Shown: positions 14,597 through 48,046 of the stretch, piece by piece
Layout: each line of letters opens with the position of its first letter
Numbering within the stretch: the first letter of the stretch is position 1
Source of the DNA: Aequorivita soesokkakensis
GTDB lineage: Bacteria > Bacteroidota > Bacteroidia > Flavobacteriales > Flavobacteriaceae
Direction: 5' to 3'
Assembly: GCF_001641085.1 (NCBI RefSeq)
Contig: NZ_LXIE01000023.1
Coordinates: forward strand, 1 to 64,000
Length of the DNA stretch: 64,000 nt
The notes under the pieces: generated by a model
Told to the model about the DNA's origin: nothing
What the model saw: the letters and a program-made list of their open reading frames with translations, nothing else
Database searches by the model: none
Made by a program: the position numbers and the translations under genes

Positions 14597-14670
14597 TGGT
14601 CCCACATGGGCTCGAACCATGGACCCTCTGATTATGAGTCAGATGCTCTAACCAGCTGAGCTATGGGACC
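14597..14670 (-). tRNA. tRNA with anticodon CAT (elongator Met, possibly Ile2)
   Basis: A 74-base cloverleaf on the minus strand. The seven-base acceptor stem is GGTCCCA paired with TGGGACC, and the discriminator is A. The D-loop has AGCTCAGCTGGTTAGAGC, the anticodon stem TCTGA/TCAGA carries loop CTCATAA, and the T-loop is GGTTCGAGCC. No CCA is encoded. A CAT anticodon can be elongator Met or, with a lysidine modification, Ile2; sequence alone does not settle this. It is not initiator-like, since the first acceptor pair is matched. Confidence 0.93.
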
Positions 14671-37109: not shown

Positions 37110-37220
37110 TTTAGACTTTTATAAAAATTCAGTGAGCTTTCCTAAGGTACTAAATCTTTCCTAATGTAAACACGTCATTCTTTGAGAAGTAGTACTTTTA
37201 CGCTAATTACAAAAACAACT

Positions 37221-39449
37221 ATGCCAAAACACAAAAGAAAAAAGAAAAACAATAAAATTGAAAATCTTTCCCAAACTATTTTAAACATTCTTCGGAAAGA
37301 TCATTCACAAGCTTTCAACTACAAACAAATTGCCTCAAAACTACAACTGGACGACCCCAGCAGTAGAAATCAAATAGTAAAAAAACTAAAGGATCTGCAA
37401 GGGAAAGGGACGATTCAGGAAATTGAGCGCGGCAAATATATACTTACCCCTTCACAAAATTATTACACCGGAAAAGTAGATATAGCGGGCCGTGGCCAAG
37501 GTTATATTATCGTTGAGGATTTAGAGGATGATATTTATGTGAAAAGCAAAAACCTAAACAAAGCCTTAAACGGCGATATTGTTGAAGTGTATGTTTTTAA
37601 GCGTAAAAAAGGCGGAAAGACCGAAGGTGAAGTAACAAAGATTATAGAAAGAAAACGAACCGAATTCGTCGGTACCATTCAAGTGCAGGAAAATTTCGCC
37701 TTTGTGGACGTTACCGATTATAAAATGTACACAGATATTTTTGTTCCGAAGAATAAAATAAACGGTGCAAAAAATGGTGAAAAAGTATTGGTAGCAATGG
37801 AAGATTGGCCAGAAAAAGCTGATTCTCCGTTTGGAAGCGTTATTAAAGTTCTCGGAATGCCCGGCGAACATAATACTGAAATTCACTCCATTTTGGCTCA
37901 ATACGGACTTCCGTATGAATTTCCACAGGAAGTAGAGGATTTTGCCAATAAAATTGATACTTCAATAAAAGCTTCGGAAATTAAAAAACGCCGCGATATG
38001 CGCGATGTTTTGACTTTTACGATAGATCCAAAAGATGCAAAGGATTTTGATGATGCGCTTTCCTTTGAAAAAATGGAGAATGGAAATTACGAAATAGGAA
38101 TCCATATTGCAGACGTTTCACATTATGTAACTCCAGGAAATGAGTTGGACGATGAAGCTTACGAGCGTGCAACCTCAGTCTATTTGGTAGATAGAGTAGT
38201 GCCGATGCTTCCTGAAATTCTTTCAAACAACGCTTGTTCCCTTCGGCCAAATGAAGAAAAATATACTTTTTCTGCAGTTTTTGAAATGAACCAAAAAGCT
38301 GAAGTTGTAAAAAAGTGGTTCGGAAGAACGGTAACTTACAGTGATGCCCGTTTCGCGTATGAAGAAGCGCAGCATATTATAGAAACGAATGTCACTTCGA
38401 GCGCAGTCGAGAAGTCTTTGAACCTTGAAATTCCTTCAAACATTTCCATTACAGACAAAGAATACACTGTAAAACCTGAAATAGCAGCCGCAATTCTGGA
38501 AATGGACCGTTTGGCAAAAACTTTGCGAACAAAACGTATGCGTGCCGGTGCTATTTCTTTCGATAAAGTGGAAGTGAAATTCATTTTAGATGAAAACAGC
38601 AATCCGGAAGGAGTTTATTTCAAGGAAAGTAAAGATGCGAACAAACTGATTGAGGAATTTATGCTTTTGGCAAACAGAAGTGTGGCTGAATTTATAGGAA
38701 AACAGGAGCCTAAAAAGACGTTTGTCTATCGCGTTCACGACGAACCGGATGATGAAAAGATTGCAGCTTTGGAAAATATAATCAAGCGTTTCGGTTATAA
38801 ACTGAACACCAAAGACCGCCATTCCACAGCCCAATCAATGAACAAGTTATTAAAAGATGTTCAAGGAAAAAAAGAACAAAATTTGATTGATACGCTTGCC
38901 ATCAGAAGTATGAGTAAAGCAATGTACACAACGCATAACATTGGCCATTACGGTTTGGCTTTCGATTATTATACACATTTCACTTCACCAATTCGTCGTT
39001 ATCCCGATGTGATGGTTCACAGACTTCTTCAGCATTATTTGGACGGTGGAAAATCTGCAAAAGAAGAAGAATACGAAGAAAAATGTGGTCACAGTAGCGA
39101 CATGGAAAATCTTGCAACAAACGCAGAGCGCGATAGCATAAAATATATGCAAGTGAAGTATATGCAGGACCACAAAGACGAAGATTTTTTGGGTGTAATT
39201 TCTGGAGTAACCGAATGGGGAATTTATGTGGAAATTATGCAGAATAAATGTGAAGGAATGGTTCGTTTGCAGGATTTAAGCGATGATCGTTACGAATTTG
39301 ACAGGGAAGAATTTGCAGTAATTGGTCAGCGTACAAAAAATGTTTACCGTCTTGGTGATGAAGTTTATGTGAAAGTGAAGAATGCAGATTTAGTGAAAAA
39401 ACACCTTGATTTTACTATGCTTGGTCACCGAAAGGATTATAAAAACTAA
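37221..39449 (+). CDS. rnr: Ribonuclease R
   Basis: A 3'-5' exoribonuclease that degrades structured RNA. It has 742 residues from the ATG at 37221 (MPKHKRKKKN). An N-terminal helix-turn-helix region (about 15-70) and cold-shock domains precede the RNB core, with TIDPKDAKDFDDALSFE and FTSPIRRYPDVMVHRLLQH. A C-terminal S1 domain begins around GVISGVTEWGIYV. Within the RNB domain, residues after EEAQHIIET (near 38385-38470) are an unusual stretch encoded in part by the interspersed element at 38391-38416. The frame is kept, so the enzyme is probably functional. Confidence 0.95.
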   Translation: MPKHKRKKKNNKIENLSQTILNILRKDHSQAFNYKQIASKLQLDDPSSRNQIVKKLKDLQGKGTIQEIERGKYILTPSQNYYTGKVDIAGRGQGYIIVEDLEDDIYVKSKNLNKALNGDIVEVYVFKRKKGGKTEGEVTKIIERKRTEFVGTIQVQENFAFVDVTDYKMYTDIFVPKNKINGAKNGEKVLVAMEDWPEKADSPFGSVIKVLGMPGEHNTEIHSILAQYGLPYEFPQEVEDFANKIDTSIKASEIKKRRDMRDVLTFTIDPKDAKDFDDALSFEKMENGNYEIGIHIADVSHYVTPGNELDDEAYERATSVYLVDRVVPMLPEILSNNACSLRPNEEKYTFSAVFEMNQKAEVVKKWFGRTVTYSDARFAYEEAQHIIETNVTSSAVEKSLNLEIPSNISITDKEYTVKPEIAAAILEMDRLAKTLRTKRMRAGAISFDKVEVKFILDENSNPEGVYFKESKDANKLIEEFMLLANRSVAEFIGKQEPKKTFVYRVHDEPDDEKIAALENIIKRFGYKLNTKDRHSTAQSMNKLLKDVQGKKEQNLIDTLAIRSMSKAMYTTHNIGHYGLAFDYYTHFTSPIRRYPDVMVHRLLQHYLDGGKSAKEEEYEEKCGHSSDMENLATNAERDSIKYMQVKYMQDHKDEDFLGVISGVTEWGIYVEIMQNKCEGMVRLQDLSDDRYEFDREEFAVIGQRTKNVYRLGDEVYVKVKNADLVKKHLDFTMLGHRKDYKN
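38391..38416 (+). repeat. Interspersed constant-loop hairpin element, copy A (inside rnr)
   Basis: Leading GTC, left arm ACTTC, constant loop GAGCGCAGTCGA, right arm GAAGT. In the rnr frame it reads VTSSAVEKS. Copies B (46749) and C (41536) share the GTC and the loop but have different, complementary arms. Confidence 0.8.
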
Positions 39450-41020: not shown

Positions 41021-41091
41021 AGGTATCGAGCGGATTCGAACCGCTGTAGCAGCTTTTGCAGAGCTGAGCCTAGCCACTCGGCCACGATACC
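41021..41091 (-). tRNA. tRNA-Cys (anticodon GCA)
   Basis: A 71-base cloverleaf on the minus strand. The acceptor stem GGTATCG pairs with CGATACC, and the discriminator is T (U73), the Cys identity base. The D arm has GCCGAGTGGCTAGGC, the anticodon stem CAGCT/AGCTG holds loop CTGCAAA, and the T-loop is GGTTCGAATCC. No CCA is encoded. A TACATTTG -7 box lies 12 bases upstream. Confidence 0.95.
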
Positions 41092-41526: not shown

Positions 41527-41535
41527 TGTTAGAAT

Positions 41536-41566
41536 GTCCGGTTGAGCGCAGTCGAAACCTTTTTTT
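41536..41566 (+). repeat. Interspersed constant-loop hairpin element, copy C (folB-glnS gap)
   Basis: Leading GTC, left arm CGGTT, constant loop GAGCGCAGTCGA, right arm AACCT, then a T run. Four of five arm pairs form. It lies between divergent folB and glnS. Confidence 0.8.
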
Positions 41567-45716: not shown

Positions 45717-46376
45717 ATGAATTTTAAACAGTTAATCTTTGTTTCCTTTTGTCTTTTATTTTTTCAGCAAACTTTTTCACAACGTAACTATAACGACTAT
45801 AATTTTTTAGGAATTCAGGGTGGAATAACACTTTTCGATATACAAACCGATGATTTGGTGACCCAACAGCAAACAGGTTTTACAGCTGGTTTTACAACCC
45901 GTGGCGCTTTCAGAAACGACTTTGACCTTATTTATGGATTAAATTTTCAAAGTTCTTCAGTGGGCGTGGAAGGAAGCAATTTCTTGGGGACAGACACCCA
46001 GAATATTAGTTACACAATTCAAGGTGCACAGATTAATTTTTTGGGAAGTTATAATATTGTTGTGAAGCATTTGAGCGTTGAGTTCGGTCCAATTTTCGAT
46101 GTTAACGGAAAGATGAAACTTGACAATGATAAATATGAAGACTATATTTTATCCGGCTATAGTACTATTACAGCTAAAGATATACAGGAAATTTCCCGAT
46201 TCAACGTTCGGCTTGCTGGCGGGCTAACTGCGGGCTTGGAACATTTCCGAATTAGCGCGCAGTATCAATATGGTGTTACAAATATGTTGAGTAAATTGAA
46301 TGACAGAGGCTTAGAAAATAAAGATTTTAAAGGAAATAGTTCCACCATTGTTGTGATGGGCGTGATATACTTTTAA
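45717..46376 (+). CDS. Outer-membrane beta-barrel protein, PorT-like
   Basis: About 219 residues from the ATG at 45717. The signal peptide (1-21, ending QTFSQ) is followed by alternating strands of about ten residues with a final aromatic (VIYF), fitting an eight-strand outer-membrane barrel. It resembles the PorT-family of type IX secretion-associated barrels, but that family is broad and secretion function is not shown. The GTG at 45663 would bury the signal peptide and is rejected. It overlaps gltX by four bases (convergent). Confidence 0.8.
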   Translation: MNFKQLIFVSFCLLFFQQTFSQRNYNDYNFLGIQGGITLFDIQTDDLVTQQQTGFTAGFTTRGAFRNDFDLIYGLNFQSSSVGVEGSNFLGTDTQNISYTIQGAQINFLGSYNIVVKHLSVEFGPIFDVNGKMKLDNDKYEDYILSGYSTITAKDIQEISRFNVRLAGGLTAGLEHFRISAQYQYGVTNMLSKLNDRGLENKDFKGNSSTIVVMGVIYF

Positions 46377-47884
46377 CCCATAAAATCTATTGCTTTTTCA
46401 ATTCGGGAAATGCTTTCCTTTTTTCCTAAAATTGAAAGAATATCAAACACATCGGGACCTTTCATTTCACCAACCAGTGCCAAACGTAGTGGCATCATCA
46501 CTTTTCCGAAGCCTATATTTTCTGAAGTAATCCAGCCTTTCACTTTTTCCGAAAGGTTTCCTGCTGAAAAGTCTTCCGAAGTATTTAGGATAGAAACCAC
46601 TATTTGAAGAAATTCCGGTGTTTCGGCTTTAAATGCTTTTTCTGTAGCTTTTGTGTCATATGTTTTTGGTGCTTCAAAAAAGAAACTTCCCTGTTCCCAT
46701 AGATCAGTTACGAAGGTTGCTCTTTCTTTTAAAAGTGAAACAATTTTTGTCAGGTTGAGCGCAGTCGAAACCTTTTTTGCTTCCAAAAATTCTCCAAACT
46801 CTCCTGCAAGTTTCACATCATCAACAGTTTGCAAATACTGATGCTGAAACCATTTAGTTTTTTCGGGATCGAATTTTGCTCCTGCTTTATGAACTCTTTC
46901 CAATTCAAAAGCGGAAATCAATTCTTCCAAACTGAAAATTTCCTGCTCCGTTCCGGGGTTCCAGCCTAAAAAGGCGAGCATATTTACAACGGCTTCGGGC
47001 AGATAACCATCTTCGCGATAGCCTGAGAAAAGATCTCCTTCAGCAGTTTTCCATTCCAAAGGAAAAACAGGGAAGCCCATTTTATCGCCATCGCGTTTGC
47101 TGAGTTTTCCGTTGCCCGTTGGCTTTAAAATTAACGGTAAATGCGCAAATTGTGGTGCATTCCAGCCAAAAGCACGATACAACAAAACGTGAAGCGCCAA
47201 TGACGGCAACCATTCCTCGCCACGAATAACGTGTGTAATTTTCATTAAATGGTCGTCCACAATATTTGCCAAATGGTAGGTTGGCATTCCATCACTTTTG
47301 AATAGAACCTTATCGTCGAGAATGTTGGTTTCCACCTGCATCTCGCCGCGAATAATATCATTTAAATGAAGAGTTTCATCTTCGGGCGTTTTAAAACGAA
47401 TAACATATTCTTCACCATTGGCTATTTTCTGCTGCGTTTCTTCCTCAGAAAAAACCAACGAATTTTTCAGTTTTAAACGGTTGTGCCAATTGTAAATAAA
47501 GGTTTTCCCTTTTGCTTCGTGATCTTTTCTATGTGCGTCAAGTTCTTCAGCGGTATCGAAAGCGTAATATGCATTTCCAGATTCAATCAGCGCATCTGCA
47601 TATTGTCTGTAAAGCTCTTTTCGTTCGCTTTGGCGGTATGGTCCGCAATTCGCTTCTTTTCTCGGACCTTCATCGTAGGGAATATTCAACCAATTCAAAG
47701 CTTCAATAATATATGCCTCGGCGCCTTCCACATAACGGTTTTGGTCGGTATCCTCTATTCGCAGTAGAAAATCGCCGCCGTGTTTTTTTGCGAATAGATA
47801 ATTAAACAAAGCGGTGCGACCACCACCAATATGTAAAGGCCCTGTTGGGCTAGGGGCAAAACGAACCCGAACTTTTTGAGACAT
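46373..47884 (-). CDS. gltX: Glutamate--tRNA ligase
   Basis: Class I synthetase charging tRNA-Glu; 503 residues from the ATG at 47884. The HIGH motif is in RFAPSPTGPLHIGGGRTAL, and KMSKS is KLSKRDGDK. FAKKHGGDFLLRIEDTDQNR follows the first motif (given in part: LRIEDTDQNRYVEG). The anticodon-binding domain starts near residue 330. Residues KKVSTALNLT near 375 are encoded by the interspersed element at 46749-46778, read in the antisense direction. A -7 box (TAACTTTG) is at 47910-47917. Confidence 0.95.
   Translation of the reverse strand: MSQKVRVRFAPSPTGPLHIGGGRTALFNYLFAKKHGGDFLLRIEDTDQNRYVEGAEAYIIEALNWLNIPYDEGPRKEANCGPYRQSERKELYRQYADALIESGNAYYAFDTAEELDAHRKDHEAKGKTFIYNWHNRLKLKNSLVFSEEETQQKIANGEEYVIRFKTPEDETLHLNDIIRGEMQVETNILDDKVLFKSDGMPTYHLANIVDDHLMKITHVIRGEEWLPSLALHVLLYRAFGWNAPQFAHLPLILKPTGNGKLSKRDGDKMGFPVFPLEWKTAEGDLFSGYREDGYLPEAVVNMLAFLGWNPGTEQEIFSLEELISAFELERVHKAGAKFDPEKTKWFQHQYLQTVDDVKLAGEFGEFLEAKKVSTALNLTKIVSLLKERATFVTDLWEQGSFFFEAPKTYDTKATEKAFKAETPEFLQIVVSILNTSEDFSAGNLSEKVKGWITSENIGFGKVMMPLRLALVGEMKGPDVFDILSILGKKESISRIEKAIDFMG
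46749..46778 (+). repeat. Interspersed constant-loop hairpin element, copy B (inside gltX)
   Basis: Leading GTC, left arm AGGTT, constant loop GAGCGCAGTCGA, right arm AACCT, then a T run, on the plus strand. gltX reads it on the other strand as KKVSTALNLT. All five arm pairs form. Confidence 0.8.
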
Positions 47885-48046
47885 AATCTGCATTCTTTTT
47901 ATGAATGGGCAAAGTTACAATTTAGAAGCCGCATTTTAAAGTTATTGCACAGAGTGGTTTTTTCTTTTTTTGGAGCAATATTTGCGGCGTGGTCAGCACA
48001 AAATAATATTGTATTTTAGAAGTTTTGAATAAAGGGAAAAACAACT

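Follow-up and report, generated by a model that had tools for sequence, protein, structure and literature searches.

A hairpin repeat inserted in frame in rnr of Aequorivita soesokkakensis, with a small GIY-YIG nuclease as its probable cognate enzyme

The first 64,000 nucleotides of contig NZ_LXIE01000023.1 of Aequorivita soesokkakensis (the window, meaning this whole stretch) contain three copies of a short hairpin element with a constant 12-nt core, GAGCGCAGTCGA, and one of these copies lies in frame within rnr, the gene encoding RNase R. The element, which is real rather than a product of chance, is a repetitive extragenic palindrome (REP)-type repeat: its copies are tagged hairpins and 19 pairs of them stand head-to-head. 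A small GIY-YIG protein, encoded by a gene that lies between such copies, is probably the cognate enzyme of the repeat, and it would recognize and cut the hairpin and thereby spread its copies. GIY-YIG enzymes are nucleases. Labels beginning with G, C and L denote genomes, contigs and loci; A. soesokkakensis is G000.

The repeat unit and its arms

A total of 84 exact copies of GAGCGCAGTCGA were found in the A. soesokkakensis genome, 43 forward and 41 reverse, and the reversed pattern, used as a control, had no match in the whole genome. The consensus unit consists of TGTC, one free base, a 4-base variable arm ending in two pyrimidines, the core, and the complementary arm, giving a stem of 4–5 bp around the constant 12 nt. 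The TGTC tag is present in 78 of the 84 copies; an unpaired CGTC or TGTC at one end is also characteristic of CGTC-REPs. One copy with a different tag (C23:128700, one of two flagged for metG) was retained in every count. Counted outward from the core, arm positions 1 to 4 form Watson-Crick pairs in 82, 83, 83, and 80 of the 84 copies, and the outermost position 5 in just 36. All four inner positions are paired in 76 copies, against a mean of 10.6 and a maximum of 23 in 10,000 shuffles of the right arms. Among the 21 distinct 4-nt arm pairs, 14 are fully complementary (shuffle mean 1.2, largest 7). An earlier note on the window had described three hairpins with a fixed 12-base loop and covarying arms; both features are confirmed, and genome-wide the copies are neither few nor complementary at the level of chance.

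Paired copies with two different ends

Twenty-two pairs of neighboring copies lie no more than 120 bp apart. Nineteen of these are head-to-head, with the tags outward and core starts 25–54 bp apart, two are tail-to-tail and one is head-to-tail; predominance of head-to-head pairs is another character of CGTC-REPs. All 19 head-to-head pairs unite one GG arm (GGTC, GGTT, or GGCT) with one non-GG arm (GTTC, CCTC, CCCC, CATT, CACT, or CCCT). When the same members were paired at random, GG/non-GG pairs averaged 9.8, and 19 was reached in none of 20,000 draws. Equal-armed pairs were not seen, against 3.5 expected, and 1.4% of shuffles likewise lacked them. Since every head-to-head pair joins a GG to a non-GG arm, the paired units possess distinct left and right ends. 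This distinction explains part of the arm variety more simply than compensatory drift does. The compensatory change proposed in the earlier note therefore stands in part: the arms covary, but some of their variation separates left from right ends.

A GIY-YIG nuclease gene linked to the repeat

The densest 3.5 kb of the genome (C12:44123-47572) holds nine exact copies and includes a gene encoding a GIY-YIG protein of 115 residues (C12:47009-47356, minus strand), with neighbors that we read as purE and purK. This gene is surrounded by five exact copies and a near one; it ends in codons that belong to a repeat copy, and two head-to-head pairs are on its 5' side. The product is a small GIY-YIG domain protein (PF01541, 67 bits) that resembles the UPF0213 structures 1zg2 and 1ywl, and NCBIfam returned no named protein family for it.

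Higher flanking of GIY-YIG genes than of Y1 transposase genes was predicted before the search result was seen. We examined 85 places out of at least 156 PF01541 matches in 20 genomes, a set that takes in most of the small genes along with some for UvrC and other long proteins. Seven of the 85 have a canonical repeat within 450 bp on each side. Six of these loci (L282, L284, L286, L289, L301, and L302) belong to one subfamily, and the seventh (L337) is a broken frame resembling it. Among the remaining 78 places, L332 is flanked on both sides by a variant core, a single copy lies 429 bp from L306, and the others have none. The residues invariant in six subfamily members, from which a profile was built, include Tyr, Arg, His, and Glu positions, which we take to be the expected GIY-YIG catalytic site.

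Of 395 genomes of the phylum, 252 gave a match to this profile, which was trimmed ahead of any repeat-coded tail. Flanks were searched at the best 30 profile loci, with one core mismatch allowed and three paired arm bases required. Repeats flank 23 of these 30 loci on both sides within 250 bp, one on one side, and six on neither, and 21 are head-to-head. For the 25 loci that were not seeds, the corresponding numbers are 18, one, and six, with 16 head-to-head. Flanking follows a C-terminal C-x-N motif: every one of the 23 loci that carry it is flanked, L353 on one side and the other 22 on both, and just L368 is flanked among the seven loci without it. The core with any sixth base occurs at 5.2 per kb within 250 bp of the gene vs. 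0.39 per kb at 250–1500 bp, a 13-fold difference. The nearest ends are pairable in 20 loci, with different arms at the two ends in 18 and a unit span of 358–595 bp. The link recurs in six families of the phylum, including four that lie outside the class of the window organism. Plasmid and viral collections yielded weak GIY-YIG relatives only (6 records, 2 loci).

Copy number and nuclease matches were also compared across genomes. The pattern GTC-N5 plus core is present at least once in 28 of 28 genus genomes vs. 5 of 31 others in the same search, and the core with any sixth base in 34 of 148 genomes of the phylum, with up to 192 copies (G348) and 126 (G180); the reversed control gave at most one match per genome in the 148-genome search. 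All 11 genomes with a strong nuclease match hold at least six copies, vs. 10 of the 137 others (p 3e-11; 148 genomes), where a strong match is one with E at most 1e-41, a cut-off chosen after seeing the data, and unlisted genomes are scored as having no match. Two arrays in which the repeat stands in tandem, with periods near 115 and 100 bp, were also observed in the congener G002 (C1, 874098-874886 and 3028780-3029604).

Other GIY-YIG genes have neighbors of their own. Several small ones (L308, L346, L294, L336, L279, L280, L304, and L290) carry different inverted words on their two sides, for example CGTCATTC[TA]GAGCGAAGCGA, GTCATTTCGACGTAAGGAGAAATC, and CTGAGCCTGTCGAAG; inverted words of at least 13 letters occurred in 50 of 5,064 cross-locus control pairs. 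A distinct hairpin may thus belong to each GIY-YIG subfamily. Other GIY-YIG genes form tandem arrays (L309, L318, L319, L325, L327, L328, L329, and L333), and the word GGGGTTCGAACCCC is found in both L292 and L325. Some of the tandem-array genes adjoin sequence that reads like a tRNA 3' end, which suggests a separate, tRNA-associated kind.

Copies in the window and within genes

The window holds exactly three GAGCGCAGTCGA sites (38399-38410, 41544-41555, and 46757-46768), all on the plus strand. The first copy (38390..38415) comprises TGTC (38390-38393), the arm ACTTC (38394-38398), the core, and the arm GAAGT (38411-38415); the earlier note had placed it at 38391-38416, correct to within one base. 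It lies in frame within rnr (37218..39449, plus strand, 743 residues from ATG), where it encodes VTSSAVEKS; the insert lies in the RNB domain (PF00773, residues 258-609), in one of its loops. The third copy (46748..46773), with TGTC and the arms AGGTT and AACCT, lies within gltX (glutamyl-tRNA synthetase; 46373..47893, minus strand), antisense to the gene and near the start of its anticodon-binding domain, and gives the peptide VSTALNL. The arms of both genic copies are as the note gave them. The second copy (41535..41559), with TGTC and the arms CGGTT and AACC, sits between divergent genes that we read as folB and glnS; its fifth arm pair is mismatched (C-T). A known RNA family was considered as the identity of the repeat and rejected: Rfam at gathering thresholds matched nothing in the window besides two tRNA genes, both on the minus strand (14597-14670 and 41021-41091).

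Within the fetched stretches of the genome, ten copies are situated well within frames that span 200 residues or more, namely rnr, gltX, leuS, metG, purL, hemW, hemD, a 3-hydroxyacyl-CoA dehydrogenase, a GSCFA protein, and a membrane protein. Pfam confirmed rnr, gltX, hemD, the dehydrogenase, and the GSCFA protein, and the remaining names are readings of the sequence. Another two copies supply the C-termini of frames, one read as hisD and the other as a PAP2-type phosphatase. A copy in a shorter frame did not count as genic.

The RNase R loop

The RNase R loop was compared among 107 homologues, 80 from named genomes and 27 from A. soesokkakensis and 26 congeners; 27 congeners were searched for rnr, and the fragment in G007 ends before the loop, leaving 26 readable. 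In 24 of the 26 the loop has eight residues of the NPKDETHT type and no insert. The congener G009 has an insert identical to that of A. soesokkakensis (NVTSSAVEKS), and G002 (L204) has a derivative one in which 27 nt replace three core bases. An in-frame insertion in a conserved gene, absent from its orthologues, is characteristic of Rickettsia palindromic elements (RPEs), and the resemblance to these that the earlier note had pointed out is supported. Several outgroups share the short loop type (e.g., NPSEEIHT and NPTDTSHT); because they do, the insert is, as judged from the alignment, derived. A single ancestral insertion followed by losses was considered and is disfavored, as the short NPxxxxH-type loop is common to the outgroups. 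In an alignment to RNase R of PDB 8cdu the insert falls at a much shorter connection, inside the RNB domain.

In Aureisphaera galaxeae (L109; arms TCCTC/GAGGA), L130, and L143 the same loop is occupied by this repeat, and L147 and L115 show it in decayed form. In L129, L141, and L150 the loop contains a different REP, which encodes VIPA(K/Q)AGI. Repeat-derived inserts are thus found in only some RNase R homologues, 11 of 106, and not in all of them, the outcome that would have counted against the note; row L124, which also resembles a decayed insert, is excluded from the 11. In a FastTree phylogeny of 106 proteins, built with the loop removed and with the G020 fragment (read over the loop) omitted, the inserts represent 11 changes, each isolated, a figure that is not firm because many inner branches are weak and lateral exchange is counted as change.

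A stretch of 38 nt is identical between the rnr genes of A. soesokkakensis and G009, which are 82% identical overall. The flanks of this stretch (48 and 58 columns) are 73 and 78% identical, not above the gene average. The identity could reflect a separate arrival of the same unit, exchange of a very short tract, or strong conservation. The ACTTC-arm version occurs at 28 sites, spread over 19 of the 299 family genomes searched, in agreement with the recurrence in other Flavobacteriaceae that the note had stated. Seven of 20 fetched ACTTC loci, the rnr copy included, lie in open frames of at least 244 residues, all reading V(T/S)SSAVE(K/N)S. Two of the 20, from other genera (L244 and L245), have the copy at the same position of a metG-matching frame.

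The gltX site is alignable in 19 of 21 genus genomes, A. soesokkakensis included. At least eight of these retain a recognizable hairpin, as read from the alignment, and the rest are decayed or replaced. The arms are AGGTT/AACCT in G000, G019, and G005, ACATC/GATGT or CATC/GATG in G011, G004, G021, and G001, and AGATT/AATCT in G009. In G012, G018, G023, and G016 the hairpin has given way, in the coding sequence, to a different palindrome, GAGACAGGGCAnTGCCCTGTCTC, intact or decayed. An extra stretch is nested in the hairpin core in gltX of G001 (L220) and G009 (L224), repeat-like in both, and also in rnr of G002 (L204), and these nested stretches look as if the hairpin loop itself had served as target. 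At the glnS site G000 and G017 have an intact copy; other congeners have a decayed one, and several have none.

Relation to known repeat systems

CGTC-REPs have a CGTC or TGTC tag at one end, are mostly head-to-head, and often pair unlike units; some copies are in frame in genes, tRNA synthetases included, and no Y1 gene adjoins them, as described in the accessible part of the 2013 survey (Di Nocera, De Gregorio and Rocco; PMC3733652). That part also places them in Bacteroidetes including G. forsetii, classes Neisseria dRS3 as a CGTC-1 REP and RPE-4 and RPE-6 as CGTC REPs, and reports no dedicated enzyme for CGTC/TGTC REPs (PMC3733652). The four described families have an 8–9 bp stem nearly always starting with A and T pairs, a 4–5 nt loop, and a short unpaired tail, according to the same portion of text (PMC3733652). 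The A. soesokkakensis repeat shares with them, so far as that text describes them, the TGTC tag, the head-to-head unlike pairs, and the in-frame copies, but differs in its variable stem of 4–5 bp, its 12-nt core, and the linked GIY-YIG gene. It is outside the four families as they are defined there, because its stem and core do not fit their stem and loop. With RPE-4 and RPE-6 it shares palindromes in frame as peptides in working genes, but it has another core and stem and belongs to another phylum.

The repeat also resembles RAYT/REPIN systems (TnpA-REP, GTAG REPs), as covered in the available text of PMC6006769, in having few nuclease genes that are repeat-flanked, dispersed singles and pairs, and a possible hairpin bulge. 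It differs in that the enzyme is GIY-YIG and not HUH Y1, no Y1 gene was found in the genome, none of 30 Y1 loci in copy-rich genomes had a copy in its flanks, and the tag is TGTC, not GTAG or GTGG. Among the titles and abstracts of the literature matches listed, which covered few subscription journals, no paper tied a GIY-YIG nuclease to REPs. The terms "GIY-YIG" and "repetitive extragenic palindrom" occur together in just one paper found (PMC9465073), where, in the text available, they belong to an unrelated table of genes and to a reference.

The present system can be likened, by description only, to Ssn. Small GIY-YIG single-strand nucleases of this name, with cognate NTS repeats in hundreds of copies in Neisseria, were reportedly described in a 2025 Nature Communications study, and the NTS of Neisseria is said to be dRS3. 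Both systems would have a small GIY-YIG protein whose gene adjoins its own repeat (here on both sides at 23 of 30 loci), and self-complementary arms of variable sequence, together with asymmetric pairing, may be peculiar to the Bacteroidota branch. If this description is right, the system is a Bacteroidota counterpart of Ssn, and what is new is the hairpin family, its asymmetric pairs whose arms vary freely, and the in-frame sites at which inserts recur.

Proposed mechanism and alternative explanations

We infer that the nuclease binds, cuts, and moves the repeat. In the probable explanation, the element is one REP end, made of an unpaired TGTC tag, a variable stem of 4–5 bp, and the constant 12-nt core, which may fold further via GA/TC pairs with a GA bulge. 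Units occur singly or head-to-head with two different ends, as in REPINs or miniature inverted-repeat transposable elements. The cognate enzyme would be the small GIY-YIG nuclease of about 100 residues with the C-terminal C-x-N, its gene lying between such ends. The enzyme would read tag, core, and bulge on single-stranded DNA and accept any complementary stem, which would explain a fixed core with varying arms. It would cut at the foot of the hairpin, and copies would spread by repair or ligation. Genic copies would persist solely in frame in tolerant loops, the rnr copy being one survivor that recodes its loop. The nuclease would either move the repeats or use them as cutting sites on incoming DNA. 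A broader proposal, offered tentatively because we judge it somewhat more apt to be wrong than right, is that small GIY-YIG nucleases are transposase-like drivers of an entire class among REPs: the gene with its two different ends (~360–600 bp) would form a minimal mobile unit, paired hairpins would be its non-autonomous offspring, each subfamily would have its own hairpin, and stems would vary since only tag, core, and bulge are read.

Several observations weigh against the nuclease as the source of the copies. The lone 27-nt hairpin is weak as naked single-stranded DNA (−0.8 to −3.6 kcal/mol in the five copies tried), and the folding z-scores of the same five units range from +0.89 to −1.28. 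The 10 genomes that hold at least six copies without a strong nuclease match include G348, the one with the most copies, which has no nuclease match at all; the nine others are alike, one of them (G176) with a broken gene. All eight genus genomes examined have copies, and a GIY-YIG member flanked by canonical repeats was found only in A. soesokkakensis; L332, of the genus genome G025, has the C-x-N motif and flanks with the variant core. The copies in the other genomes therefore presuppose that the gene was lost or acts from elsewhere. Given genomes such as G348 and this lone flanked member in the genus, the association is no proof that the nuclease makes the copies. In addition, no clean pair of empty and filled insertion sites and no target duplication could be defined at the rnr, gltX, and glnS sites, which are too diverged. 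As to the selection on a folded form for which the earlier note had argued, selection for a fold in place is weakly supported: orthologous copies at the glnS site decay or are absent.

Among the alternatives, a site-marking role is rather unlikely in our estimate. An Ssn-like nuclease would here cut repeats on incoming single-stranded DNA and so shape natural transformation, the repeats spreading slowly by recombination and without mobilization. The same linkage data speak for this, and the 38 identical nt in rnr of A. soesokkakensis and G009 look like a very short exchanged tract, but the flanks of that tract are no more alike than the gene average, and the 84 dispersed copies here, the 192 in G348, the pairs of fixed asymmetry, and the pairs flanking the gene have the look of a mobile family. 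That the GIY-YIG gene is a passenger landing preferentially between repeats made by something else is improbable: other GIY-YIG subfamilies also lie beside repeats or tRNA-like sequence, and G348 has many copies without such a gene, but the linkage is specific to the subfamily, with all C-x-N loci flanked and one of seven others. We give slightly less credence still to a local function, as an mRNA hairpin or a useful RNase R peptide, for which the rnr copy would have been kept. The 38 nt unchanged against 82% gene identity and the eleven separate acquisitions at the loop agree with such a role, but the inserts derive from two repeat families with different peptides, and most relatives lack an insert; the site reads better as a permissive loop.

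The candidate to which we assign the least probability, a very small one, is an ordinary REP moved by a Y1 tyrosine transposase (RAYT) that has since been lost from this genome. The anatomy of the repeat is REP-like, and Y1 genes occur in 19 of 28 genus genomes, but nine have none, copy number is unrelated to Y1 count over the 28 (rho 0.09), and no Y1_Tnp (PF01797) or RAYT match was found in the A. soesokkakensis genome. In 12 copy-rich genomes, three of them without a Y1 match, none of 30 Y1 loci (of 39 matches) had a copy in its flanks of up to 1.5 kb, less at contig ends. Another 30 Y1 loci were taken from relatives; a copy accompanied three of them, in one case (L092) within 250 bp. At this locus a RAYT-like gene (L092:1170-1960) has one copy of the A. 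soesokkakensis repeat ~170 bp upstream, but it stands amid other palindromes, of the CGCGATnCAATCGC type. A RAYT/Y1 mobilizer is accordingly disfavored by its absence from the genome, the lack of correlation in the genus, and the lack of linkage in copy-rich genomes.

Significance

The subfamily-specific link to a GIY-YIG gene makes the question of who moves or cuts CGTC/TGTC REPs directly testable. If the transposase-like reading of these nucleases is true, it would answer the question, standing since 2013, of what moves such REPs. The repeats recode the same RNase R and methionyl-tRNA synthetase loops in different genera, and these loops offer a natural experiment on tolerated peptide insertion.

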